This document shows positions 3,578-36,437 of a DNA stretch of 54,415 nucleotides, piece by piece. The stretch is from Cnuella takakiae. Lineage in GTDB: Bacteria > Bacteroidota > Bacteroidia > Chitinophagales > Chitinophagaceae. The notes under the pieces are model-generated. The model was given only the letters and a program-made list of their open reading frames with translations, was not told where the DNA came from and made no database searches. The translations under genes and the position numbers were made by a program. The stretch's first letter is position 1. The number at the start of each line of letters is the position of its first letter. The DNA is taken from positions 4,229,845 to 4,284,259 of the forward strand of contig NZ_MTFE01000010.1 in assembly GCF_001953305.1 (NCBI RefSeq). The letters run 5' to 3'.

Positions 3578-4270
3578 ATGCAAGCGCAGAACTACTCTAT
3601 TAAGCAATGGGCAAAAGACGACCGGCCACGCGAAAAACTACGTACCAAGGGTGCCACGGCCCTCTCCGACTCCGAGCTGCTGGCCATCCTGCTGCACCAC
3701 GGCACCCGTGAAAAAAGCGCGGTGGACCTCGCTAAAGACATACTGCTGCTGGGTAAAAACAACCTCTCTGAACTGGGCCGCCTGTCCATTGCCGACCTTT
3801 CGCGCATCAAAGGTATTGGCGAAGCTAAGGCCATCACCATTATGGCCGCACTGGAACTGGGCCGCCGAAGGCAGGCCAGTGCCTCGCTCGATAAACCCAT
3901 CATCGCCTCTTCGGGCGATGTAGCCCGCTATCTGCAAAGCCTCCTGCGCGACCACCGGCACGAAGTGTTTGCCGTGCTTTTTCTCAACCGCGCCAACAAG
4001 ATCAACCACTTCCAGGTGGTGAGCCAGGGCGGCATTACCGGCACCGTTGCCGACCCGCGCATTATTTTGAAAAGAGCTTTGGAAGAAGATGCCGTCTCCA
4101 TCATCCTCTGCCACAACCACCCCTCCGGCGCCCTGAAGCCCAGCCGCGCCGATGAAGAGCTGACCCTTAAAATAAAAGAGGCAGCCCGCTACTTCGATAT
4201 CAAAGTACTGGACCACCTGATTGTAAGTGAAGAGGGGTATTTCAGTTTTGCGGATGAGGGGTTAATATAA
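3578..4270 (+). CDS. radC: RadC family protein (JAB/MPN-domain, DNA-associated)
   Basis: The 230-residue protein has the RadC layout. An N-terminal helix-hairpin-helix region at about residues 66-97 (LGRLSIADLSRIKGIGEAKAITIMAALELGRR) precedes a C-terminal JAB/MPN domain. The JAB metal motif is intact as ILCHNHPSGALKPSRAD, with H179, H181 and D192. The biochemical role of RadC is unsettled; the historical DNA-repair assignment is doubtful and links to mobile elements and competence have been proposed. The ATG at 3578 is divergent from the small membrane protein. The stop codon is followed immediately (4271) by a palindromic repeat that opens the DUF559 bracket. Confidence 0.92.
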   Translation: MQAQNYSIKQWAKDDRPREKLRTKGATALSDSELLAILLHHGTREKSAVDLAKDILLLGKNNLSELGRLSIADLSRIKGIGEAKAITIMAALELGRRRQASASLDKPIIASSGDVARYLQSLLRDHRHEVFAVLFLNRANKINHFQVVSQGGITGTVADPRIILKRALEEDAVSIILCHNHPSGALKPSRADEELTLKIKEAARYFDIKVLDHLIVSEEGYFSFADEGLI

Positions 4271-4303
4271 ACCCCCTGTCCCCCTGGAGGGGGAACTTAG
4301 GCC
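4271..4303 (-). repeat. CCCCCTAAAGGGGG-type palindromic repeat, copy C
   Basis: Reverse-orientation copy (ACCCCCTGTCCCCCTGGAGG followed by GGGAACTTAGGCC). It starts at the base after the radC stop codon. It faces copy D across the DUF559 gene. Confidence 0.85.
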
Positions 4304-4350
4304 GGAAAGCATGATTATGAATAAAATCTCTTTAGCACAAAGCTTTTTGT

Positions 4351-4745
4351 ATGAAAAGGAATATGTTTTCGGGGGCAGAAAGAGGCATATTTGAAAGGGC
4401 TAAAGCGTTGCGAAAACAGCAAACACCGGCCAAGGAAATCTTATGGTCCTTTTACGGCAAAAGCTACTGGGCTGCAAGTTCAGCAGGCAACATCCTTTTG
4501 GTATTTACATTTTGGATTTTTATTGCCATCAACTTCATTTAGCAATAGAAGTTGATGGCAATATTCATTTACTGGAATCGGTACAGAAAAACGACAAAAT
4601 GAGGGAAGAGACTTTGTCAAAGCTGGGGCTGCAAATCCTGCGATTCACAAACGAAGAACCTACCCATAAACAAGCAACAGTTTTCCAGTCCATCACCCAC
4701 TTCATCCTCCAACAGCTTCCAACCTCACCAGGTATCCCGACCTAA
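4351..4745 (+). pseudogene. DUF559 endonuclease-domain protein, frameshifted
   Basis: Two overlapping frames together give one DUF559 protein of about 130 residues. The first frame (4351 to about 4455) reads RAKALRKQQTPAKEILW. The second (from about 4456 to 4745) reads LRQKLLGCKFSRQHPFG, then YILDFYCHQLHLAIEVDG, NIH and LRFTNEE. DUF559 belongs to the PD-(D/E)XK/Vsr-like nuclease superfamily, and the D of ILDF and the E and D of EVDG are the expected acidic residues. Adding one T to the T run at about 4450-4453 restores a continuous frame (LWSFLRQKLLGCKF). The break is therefore a one-base loss, real or from sequencing. Inverted copies of a palindromic repeat lie on both sides. The function of such DUF559 proteins is not established. 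Confidence 0.82.
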
Positions 4746-4775
4746 ATCCCCCCTTTAGGGGGACAGGGGGTGGGT
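4739..4775 (+). repeat. CCCCCTAAAGGGGG-type palindromic repeat, copy D
   Basis: Forward-orientation copy (GACCTAAATCCCCCCTTTAG followed by GGGGACAGGGGGTG). It ends at the stop codon of the minus-strand DUF3467 gene (4776) and closes the bracket around the DUF559 gene. Confidence 0.85.
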
Positions 4776-5084
4776 TTACGCCTGACCCGCCGGCCCAAAA
4801 GTAAGCGGCAGTGCAATCTCCTCCAGGTCTTTGATGGGGCCGTTGGCGGCTTCGTAGCGCTGTACGTTTTCGGCCAGGGCATTCATGAAGCGCTTGGCGT
4901 GTTGGGGGGTAACAATGATGCGGCTCTTTACCTTGCTTTTAGGGGTGCCGGGCATCACGTTTACAAAGTCGATCACAAACTCGGCGTGCGAATGGGTAAT
5001 GATAGCCAGGTTGGCATACTGTCCTTCGGCCACTTCTTCCGATATTTCAATATTGAGTTGATTCTGTTGTTGCTGGTCGCTCAT
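4776..5084 (-). CDS. DUF3467 domain-containing protein
   Basis: This 102-residue protein matches DUF3467, a short conserved family of unknown function. The recognisable segments are LNIEISEEVAEGQYANLAIITHS, AEFVIDFVNVMPG, and VKSRIIVTPQHAKRFMNALAENV. There is no signal peptide or membrane segment, so it is likely cytoplasmic. The open frame continues six codons upstream. The ATG at 5082-5084 (MSDQQQQNQ) is chosen because a TACATTTG promoter element (5100-5107 on the minus strand) would place transcription start inside the longer version. It runs convergently to the DUF559 gene, and its stop codon directly abuts repeat copy D. In many Bacteroidota DUF3467 genes lie near RNA polymerase genes, but that neighbourhood is not seen here. 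Confidence 0.85.
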   Translation of the reverse strand: MSDQQQQNQLNIEISEEVAEGQYANLAIITHSHAEFVIDFVNVMPGTPKSKVKSRIIVTPQHAKRFMNALAENVQRYEAANGPIKDLEEIALPLTFGPAGQA

Positions 5085-5099
5085 CGTTTTGTTTTGTAA

Positions 5100-5107
5100 C
5101 AAATGTA
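5100..5107 (-). promoter_or_regulatory. TAnnTTTG promoter element for the DUF3467 gene
   Basis: TACATTTG on the minus strand matches the Bacteroidota -7 consensus exactly, 15 bases upstream of the chosen ATG. It overlaps the longer possible start and so argues for the shorter protein. Confidence 0.5.
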
Positions 5108-35444: not shown

Positions 35445-35478
35445 CACCCCCTGTCCCCCTAAAAGGGGAACTTAGGTC
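35445..35478 (-). repeat. CCCCCTAAAGGGGG-type palindromic repeat, copy E
   Basis: Reverse-orientation copy (CACCCCCTGTCCCCCTAAAA then GGGGAACTTAGGTC). It is preceded by two partial copies of its outer end, CACCCC(C)TGT or CACCCCCTTT (35419-35444). It faces copy F. Confidence 0.85.
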
Positions 35479-35499
35479 AGGGTATATCTTGATAGCAAC

Positions 35500-35530
35500 G
35501 CCACCCAGTAACAGGGTGGCTTTTTTTTTA
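35500..35530 (+). terminator. Intrinsic terminator of guaB
   Basis: GCCACCC (35500-35506) and GGGTGGC (35514-35520) form a hairpin followed by ten T, inside the E-F repeat bracket. Confidence 0.85.
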
Positions 35531-35723
35531 CAAAGATGTCGGTTATTAAAGGCAATCTTAGCCCACGGTTTCAACCGTGGGGATATAGCAATAGGAGATT
35601 GTTGGAGCAACCGTTTCAACGGTTTCCCTGCAACTTACTTACTGGTATAATAAGAGCAGCATAAGGATCAATATTTGCACGTCTTAATATCTCTTCAAAA
35701 CATTCCTTTAAAAAAAACATATC

Positions 35724-36437
35724 ATGAAAGCAATAGAGAACGCTGACCTAGGTTCCCCCTTAAGGGGGACAGGGGTTGTGGGTACTCGCGTAGAACACCG
35801 TTTTATCCTCCGCGATGGCTTTACTCCTGCAGGTGCAACGGCCATGCTCCTGGGCACTTTTCCCTCTGTGTTGATCCGGGAGGCTTTTGGCAGGGTGCGG
35901 CAAACGGACGTTGATTTCTTTTACGGTAGCGCCGATAATAATTTCTGGAGAGACCTTTCGATCGTTTACAACCGGCCATTATCCTTTACCCGCACCGAAA
36001 CAGCTATTGAAGAACGCAAGCAACTGCTCACCGATCTGAACCTGGCCTTATCTGACGCCATCTTTGCCTGCACCACTTCGGGCAGTGCCATGGATACAGC
36101 TTTACAAAATATTGAACTGAACGAATACATCATTGCCACGCTTGACCAACACCCGACTATTTCCAGGTTGTACTTTACCAGTTCGTCCGGCAAGGTGAAT
36201 GCAGAAAGCCTCACCCTCAAACTATTGAAAGAAAAAGGCCGGATCAGCGGTATGCGCATCATCCAGCAAAGCGGCCCGAGACGCCGCAATTTCCAATACC
36301 GCGATGCGGCAGGCAGCATGCGGATGATGGATACCGTTACCCTCATCTCTCCATCACCCCTTGCCGAGCAAATGGCTGGTATCAAGCCGGAACAAAGAAG
36401 GGCATTGTACCAGCAGTGGCTGCCAATAATGGCTTAA
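35724..36437 (+). CDS. Uracil-DNA-glycosylase-superfamily protein with repeat-derived N terminus
   Basis: The 237-residue protein resembles the UDG superfamily (Mug/hypoxanthine-DNA-glycosylase-like). The first motif is LLGTFPSVL in place of GxxPG, then DFFYGSADNNFWRDL corresponding to the YY..PRNxFW motif, and VTLISPSPLAEQ corresponding to the C-terminal LPSPSPA loop. It would remove deaminated or mismatched bases, but the exact substrate is not predictable. Residues 7-19 (ADLGSPLRGTGVV) are encoded by palindromic repeat copy F. The conserved part starts at about residue 24, so a GTG at 35778 is an alternative start. The neighbours are guaB upstream and a convergent DUF2339 gene downstream. 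Confidence 0.75.
   Translation: MKAIENADLGSPLRGTGVVGTRVEHRFILRDGFTPAGATAMLLGTFPSVLIREAFGRVRQTDVDFFYGSADNNFWRDLSIVYNRPLSFTRTETAIEERKQLLTDLNLALSDAIFACTTSGSAMDTALQNIELNEYIIATLDQHPTISRLYFTSSSGKVNAESLTLKLLKEKGRISGMRIIQQSGPRRRNFQYRDAAGSMRMMDTVTLISPSPLAEQMAGIKPEQRRALYQQWLPIMA
35745..35779 (+). repeat. CCCCCTAAAGGGGG-type palindromic repeat, copy F, inside a coding frame
   Basis: Forward-orientation copy (GACCTAGGTTCCCCCTTAAG then GGGGACAGGGGTTGTG). It is read in frame as part of the N terminus of the UDG-like protein. Inverted partner of copy E. Confidence 0.85.

Follow-up and report, generated by a model that had tools for sequence, protein, structure and literature searches.

Inverted palindromes around a DUF559 nuclease gene in Cnuella takakiae: a candidate REP-like mobile element of Bacteroidota

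A small gene of the DUF559 family in Cnuella takakiae lies between two inverted copies of a C-rich palindrome, and gene and palindromes together (positions 4271–4775) fill the entire gap between the stop codons of radC and a DUF3467 gene in the 54,415-nt stretch of DNA that was analyzed, hereafter the window. The arrangement raises the question of whether these parts constitute one mobile unit and, if so, what moves it. The comparisons presented here indicate that the unit probably is a full-length copy, now decayed, of a mobile element that comprises two inverted, hairpin-forming, C-rich palindromes and one small gene for a Vsr/EDxHD-type PD-(D/E)XK nuclease (DUF559). Units with the same ends but no gene probably are its non-autonomous derivatives, akin to miniature inverted-repeat transposable elements (MITEs) or to REP doublets forming hairpins (REPINs; REP, repetitive extragenic palindrome). 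Genomes are denoted G0xx below, G000 being that of the window, and individual loci Lxxx.

The DUF559 unit and its gene-free relatives

The left palindromic arm (4271–4303, plus strand) begins immediately after radC, which ends at position 4270, and the inverted right arm (4739–4775, minus strand) adjoins the end of the minus-strand DUF3467 gene at 4776. Both the bracketing of the gene and the abutment of the arms on the two stop codons had been proposed in a preliminary description of the window and were borne out; the left arm starts with AACCCCC, not with CACCCCC as given there. The family assignment made in that description was likewise upheld by a match to PF04480 in Pfam (E 7.6e-21). The gene is broken: a frameshift separates an N-terminal part (4351–4455, plus strand), which resembles by eye the N terminus of the nuclease at L045, from a C-terminal part in a different frame (4443–4745, plus strand) that matches positions 26–107 of PF04480 and includes the conserved D..ExDGxxH residues. 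In a predicted model the fold of the nuclease resembles the homing endonuclease I-Bth0305I and Vsr.

When up to two mismatches are allowed, the repeat CCCCCTGTCCCCCT occurs six times in the window compared to a mean of 0.45 in shuffled sequences, none of 100 of which reached six copies. The six copies are arranged as three inverted pairs (2081/2254, 4272/4757, and 35447/35763), the first and last of which enclose no nuclease gene, in agreement with the preliminary description. The six-copy count nevertheless understated the abundance of the repeat, as the genome of the window contains 71 exact copies, 34 on one strand and 37 on the other, versus one copy of a reversed control pattern. Pairs were analyzed in the window and 40 further stretches which together cover 69 of the 71 exact copies, with up to two mismatches allowed in the arms. 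The inverted pairing that the preliminary description had proposed as a check was evident in these stretches: 64 of the 69 copies belong to 43 inverted pairs, all with one outward orientation, and the other five are unpaired. Twenty-four pairs measure 140–172 bp, 29 are up to 200 bp long, 12 span 201–335 bp, one (the DUF559 unit) is 499 bp, and one is 589 bp. Thus, 41 of the 43 pairs are gene-free units of 142–330 bp that are too short for a nuclease gene. The 589-bp pair encloses a 103-aa hydrophobic open reading frame, possibly a captured gene (L065:3768-4079).

The two ends of the units, designated A and B, differ inside the hairpin. In 33 pairs the two ends are of different types, in five they are alike, and five pairs are unclear, so that 33 of 38 classifiable pairs are of mixed type (binomial p 2e-6). 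The left arm of the DUF559 unit in the window is of type A by its inner bases and the right arm has no clear type by a simple score; on a crude inner-base measure the unit scores as having two type A ends. Moreover, 20 units of 140–172 bp align end to end, and 17 of these contain a terminator-type hairpin, recognized by eye, whose distance from end B is nearly constant. One unit that was scanned as an example passed a terminator scan; at window positions 4200–4850, no terminator-like or promoter-like consensus site was detected. Because the two ends are distinguishable and the units align from end to end, most pairs are copies of one two-ended unit rather than repeats that met by chance. This unit with its terminator, the frameshift described above, and the in-frame insertions described below are features beyond those in the preliminary description. 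Gene-free units at L054, L055, L063, L072, L073, L079, and L093 contain an extra nested palindrome, by eye of the CGGATGAAACGGAT...ATCCGTTTCATCCG type, which possibly is another small element inside the first.

Placement of the pairs was assessed relative to long open frames, defined as at least 80 codons from stop to stop and unchecked as genes. Such frames end toward the pair on both sides in 37 of 43 cases, compared to 52 of 491 random stretches of matching lengths. Pair ends are located within 3 bp of one of these stop codons in 24 of 86 instances versus 12 of 564 random points (p 1e-14). In 14 cases the palindrome contains the stop codon, at a depth of 16 or 29 bases, and the unit itself therefore terminates the host frame.

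The junction of radC (3578–4270, plus strand; PF04002, PF20582) with the convergent DUF3467 gene (4776–5102, minus strand; PF11950) was compared across 18 genomes of the genus. The gap measures 505 bp in the genome of the window, 1 bp in G001, in which the order is stop, one base, stop, 14 bp in G002, and 54, 72, 107, and 135 bp in four more genomes. As the stop codons are only 1 bp apart in G001, the unit in the window is most simply interpreted as an insertion. The 256-bp gap in G015 contains a different C-rich palindrome pair, as judged by eye, and the junctions in G003, G008, G009, G010, G013, and G014 have 266–1131 bp of other DNA. In G004, G005, G012, and G016 the motif used did not retrieve the neighbor at the junction. 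Empty sites in relatives, another check put forward in the preliminary description, therefore are present here and at the leuS site discussed below, in species of the genus rather than in strains.

The other two pairs in the window have different surroundings. The short pair at 2080–2268 is flanked on one side by a ribosomal L25p-type gene and on the other by a ribose-phosphate pyrophosphokinase gene, which are co-directional on the minus strand. The pair at 35446–35777 is 3′ of an IMP dehydrogenase gene and overlaps the start of an open reading frame (35724–36437) without a Pfam match.

DUF559 genes and their arms across Bacteroidota

Whether DUF559 genes are located within repeat pairs more often than random positions was examined with an arm score, which is the best inverted repeat between the 300-bp flanks; genes with a score of at least 16 were considered armed. 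As the preliminary description had anticipated, an excess was observed in every set. In the genus and order (own genome included) 31 of 48 DUF559 genes were armed versus 2 of 600 random positions. The numbers in further Bacteroidota were 13 of 30 and 17 of 40 (together 30 of 70) against 4 of 1000, and among 80 named loci 41 were armed, again against 4 of 1000. The 48 genes represent all 59 PF04480 matches minus 11 weak ones (E > 1e-8, mostly large frames or partial), one of which, L004, had no arms when scored by eye. The sets of 30, 40, and 80 consist of high-scoring matches, an uneven sample, and some of the 80 overlap places in the other sets. A few of the 80 derive from other phyla: the loci in Ignavibacteria, Myxococcota, and Magasanikbacteria have arms and that in Anaerolineales does not. 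Among the 31 armed loci in the genus and order, the arms include CCCC in 27 and CCCCC in 18. A partial DUF559 match in the genome of the window (L003; G000:C1:3657859-3658089) is enclosed by a long inverted repeat of a different type (CCTCCCCCTTTGTAAAAGGGGG).

Other small gene families in relatives were assessed at 30 loci each among the matches listed. Loci for REP-associated tyrosine transposases (RAYTs) were armed in 18 of 30 cases, with CCCC in 7 of the 18 and CCCCC in none. Five of 30 GIY-YIG loci were armed, none with CCCC or CCCCC; 16 of the 30 sit in frames of >450 aa, so that 5 of 14 small ones are armed, mostly by their own repeat. The 23S-IVP loci were armed in 13 cases, with CCCC in one and CCCCC in none, and were dismissed as a parallel case as their arms look by eye like simple tandem-type sequence. 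Overall, CCCCC arms were present in 0 of 36 armed RAYT, GIY-YIG, and IVP loci of relatives. The small GIY-YIG genes at L131, L125, L129, and L133 are situated between inverted repeats of the TGTCATGCTGA / GGCATGACA type and perhaps constitute a third class of nuclease that has palindromes of its own. Tandem GIY-YIG frames with 351-bp spacing and the same score and length also occur in G010 (C2:497531-499150 and C43:112246-113163).

The relationship between nuclease and palindrome was explored with a nuclease tree of 114 rows and 108 columns from which L003, L047, L052, and L053 were left out as short or containing stops; with just 108 columns, many forks are weak. Seventy-six rows have an arm score of at least 13, and the 74 with CCC or GGG in the arm were used for co-diversification tests. 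A stem of at least 6 within the arm was detected in 63 of these 74 units, which had been selected for CCC or GGG in the arm. Arm similarity between genomes increased with nuclease identity (rho 0.23, 0 of 2000 permutations), a moderate effect. When orthologous places were excluded, arms were alike in 9 of 20 pairs at ≥60% nuclease identity and in 33 of 200 pairs at 50–60%, and in 21 of 804 among all pairs below 40%. Same-genome pairs shared arms in 3 of 33 cases and in 1 of 20 under 50% nuclease identity. The nuclease in the window is sister to that of L045 in G003 (99/90), which has the same palindrome. This palindrome also is found at L052 (G001) and L053 (G007), and none of the three loci adjoins radC; the nuclease frame is open in L045 and contains a stop codon in L052 and in L053.

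According to the preliminary description, an equal abundance of the repeat in genomes without a DUF559 gene would refute the proposed link. The outcome of this comparison was only partly favorable. Two or more copies of the window repeat were detected in 9 of 14 genomes of the genus with a small DUF559 gene versus 0 of 4 without (p 0.04; sorted by hand). Similarly, the CTCACCCCNNNCCCTCTCC palindrome was present in 21 of 162 genomes of the phylum with a strong DUF559 match (E < 1e-15) versus 9 of 233 without (p 8e-4), a comparison that was sorted by hand and ignores kinship. One genome that departs from this pattern, G059, is considered below.

The DUF559 domain lies within an open frame of at least 300 aa in 17 of 48, 30 of 70, and 28 of 80 cases in the respective sets. 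Pfam analysis of nine such frames positioned DUF559 inside or at the edge of a host domain, the hosts being LeuRS, tryptophan dioxygenase, IspG/GcpE, a DEAD/RecQ-type helicase, an amino acid kinase (argB by eye), URO-D, HsdR, an M23 peptidase, and the MetH activation domain. Further in-frame cases in metH, leuS, the methylmalonyl-CoA mutase gene, hisF, ispF, and metG were recognized by eye, and the palindromes are translated as linkers, e.g., LTPGPSPKERG. No Rfam match to an intron or structured RNA was obtained in 9 loci, and no intein splicing domain was among the Pfam matches of the nine host frames. At one leuS site in the 18 genomes of the genus, a full unit is present in four, a shorter insert (palindrome-like by eye) in two, and neither in 12. 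Seven leuS units from the genus and class do not form one clade (approximately unbiased test, p 0.004), which disfavors strict homing to one allele. Moreover, a recQ-type unit in G001 and the leuS unit of G011 are sisters in the tree (100/99), and units therefore change host genes. A role as a defense system was rejected, PADLOC having provided only weak matches, one family of which is a homing endonuclease.

Additional insertions were apparent at some of these loci. LeuRS at L190 and L193 (G012 and G001) has a second long insertion after QGMIQG.SRF, by eye resembling another PD-(D/E)XK-type domain (IDF...IAIEV), and leuS of G011 (L184) contains a second short palindrome-like pair in-frame between IPEW and ETNTMPG. 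In the genome of the window, a DUF559 unit with other arms (L001; G000:C1:794292-794615) is in-frame upstream of part of a MetH activation domain, and its upstream side contains N bases.

Mobility, mechanism, and rival explanations

Comparison among genomes establishes the bracketing of the gene, the multiplicity of the unit, its two distinguishable ends, the empty sites, the placement between convergent stop codons, the link of palindrome to nuclease lineage, and, in relatives, the in-frame placement in conserved genes. The mobility of the unit is well supported, and we infer that the nuclease is its driver. The best reading is a REP/RAYT-like mobile element whose single protein is a Vsr/EDxHD-type nuclease and which has MITE-like derivatives. 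DUF559 had been suggested in the preliminary description as the enzyme behind a REP-like family with gene-carrying and empty forms; the genome-wide pairs bear out the two forms, and the part assigned to the enzyme is an inference. The nuclease would recognize the palindromic ends, either as hairpins or at their foot, the hairpins probably being exposed during replication or transcription. It may nick or cut its own ends and/or the target, and repair or replication would copy or move the stretch between the two ends into a new place. Gene-free units could be served in trans. Selection would leave insertions that do little harm, either directly after stop codons or in-frame in tolerant protein loops, and a unit after a stop codon can potentially provide its own stop codon and terminator.

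A number of observations weigh against a nuclease-driven element. The nuclease gene in the window is not intact and no intact DUF559 gene flanked by such arms was observed in the same genome. The six arms in the window fold no better than shuffles of the same composition, and no target-site duplication was evident in the 5-bp flanks of the pairs, which were inspected without a tally. At the threshold used, 17 of 48, 40 of 70, and 39 of 80 DUF559 genes have no arms. Other repeats likewise bracket 5 of 14 small GIY-YIG genes and some RAYTs, and bracketing alone therefore does not single out DUF559. G059 possesses 20 copies of the CTCACCCCNNNCCCTCTCC palindrome and no DUF559 gene, and the window palindrome occurs 17 times in G015 and 10 times in G006 with no DUF559 gene seen in exactly such a pair. 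Finally, a single clade is not rejected for eight metH units (p 0.27), and some units therefore may be inherited.

Certain of these points would be expected if the pairs owed their spread to a different, unseen enzyme or to host repair, with DUF559 often caught between the repeats as a passenger. The 41 pairs without room for a gene, the 589-bp pair that holds a hydrophobic frame instead of a nuclease, and the palindrome-rich G059 genome fit this explanation. However, chance capture would not yield arms at 43–65% of DUF559 genes in three sets, arm sequences follow the nuclease lineage, and CCCCC arms are absent from the 36 armed loci of the other families in relatives, making a passenger role fairly unlikely. 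RAYTs of the Y1 HUH type are a more specific candidate, as the spread of REPs by these transposases has been proposed (as described in part of PMC2817692) and PF01797 matches were found in 12 of 17 genomes searched, including two in the genome of the window. That the RAYTs move these palindromes as ordinary REPs is nevertheless highly unlikely because RAYT loci carry their own palindromes (18 of 30 loci, with CCCCC in 0 of 18 and CCCC in 7), and the GTAG or CGTC tag is not present in the arms in the window.

Non-mobile origins also were considered. Bidirectional terminators or REP-like structures selected by the host at gene ends, with DUF559 as a chance neighbor, would account for the 37 of 43 pairs between convergent frames and for the terminator-type hairpins in the aligned units, including the scanned example. 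Yet units of ~160 bp are conserved end to end at many loci, relatives have empty junctions, and DUF559 units occur within coding frames, which together leave this explanation very unlikely. The in-frame cases might instead be functional domain fusions unrelated to the unit in the window, e.g., in defense or repair through union of the nuclease with restriction enzymes: several hosts are HsdR- or restriction-type proteins (one HsdR by Pfam, others by eye) to which an extra nuclease could be useful. In contrast, many hosts are housekeeping enzymes (LeuRS, IspG, tryptophan dioxygenase, HemE, and others), the unit splits some host domains, the palindromes at its two ends often being translated, and the leuS unit is missing from most orthologues in the genus. 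Fusion of this kind is extremely unlikely as a general explanation.

Relation to known systems

The logic of RAYT and REP, the in-frame habit of Rickettsia palindromic elements, and the Vsr-like fold each are known, but their combination with a DUF559 enzyme was not found in the open literature; a search of open-licence papers, conducted mostly at listing level, found no prior report of DUF559 with palindromes. We incline, with some reserve, to the view that the units constitute a separate class of transposable element that is widespread in Bacteroidota. The single protein of this class would be a Vsr/EDxHD-like PD-(D/E)XK nuclease, and its hairpin palindrome ends would co-diversify with the nuclease. 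It would live between convergent stop codons or be translated in-frame in essential enzymes without splicing, and would flood genomes with terminator-bearing, gene-free derivatives. If so, a second, unrelated enzyme class has adopted the REP/RAYT way of life, DUF559, of ‘unknown function’ in Pfam, has a mobile role, in-frame palindromic elements such as those of Rickettsia have a nuclease-encoding counterpart, and neither an intron nor an intein is required for a selfish nuclease to survive within essential enzymes. The agent that moves abundant palindromes in genomes without a matching RAYT also becomes testable.

The closest parallel is the RAYT (TnpA-REP) system with its REPs, bacterial interspersed mosaic elements (BIMEs), and REPINs, in which, as described in part of PMC2817692, a gene for a small DNA-cutting enzyme is located between two inverted palindromes, gene-free and often extragenic derivatives exist, and the palindrome tracks the enzyme lineage. 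The DUF559 unit differs in encoding a PF04480 nuclease with a Vsr/EDxHD-like PD-(D/E)XK fold, as modelled, in place of a Y1 HUH transposase (PF01797), and in also residing in-frame inside genes. The GTAG or CGTC tag of the RAYT-REP system is absent from all six arms in the window; as both the Y1 domain and the tag are lacking, the DUF559 system is not a RAYT. Its predicted catalytic fold is shared with EDxHD (Vsr-like) homing endonucleases, e.g., I-Bth0305I, families of which are covered in part of PMC3943268. Unlike these enzymes, DUF559 units have palindromic ends and gene-free derivatives, no intron or intein was seen in the loci tested, and one leuS site has accommodated several unit lineages. 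Short gene-free units with inverted ends and many copies also are characteristic of MITEs. The usual parent of a MITE is an element with a DDE transposase, whereas the presumed parent here encodes a nuclease and no DDE transposase, and target duplication is not evident. Finally, Rickettsia palindromic elements are inserts of ~150 bp with a short peptide that, as described in part of PMC10969869, are in-frame in unrelated metabolic genes. Compared by description, they resemble DUF559 units as palindromic inserts in-frame in unrelated genes (leuS, ispG, recQ-like, tryptophan dioxygenase, and others), and differ in that full-length DUF559 units encode a nuclease and belong to another phylum.
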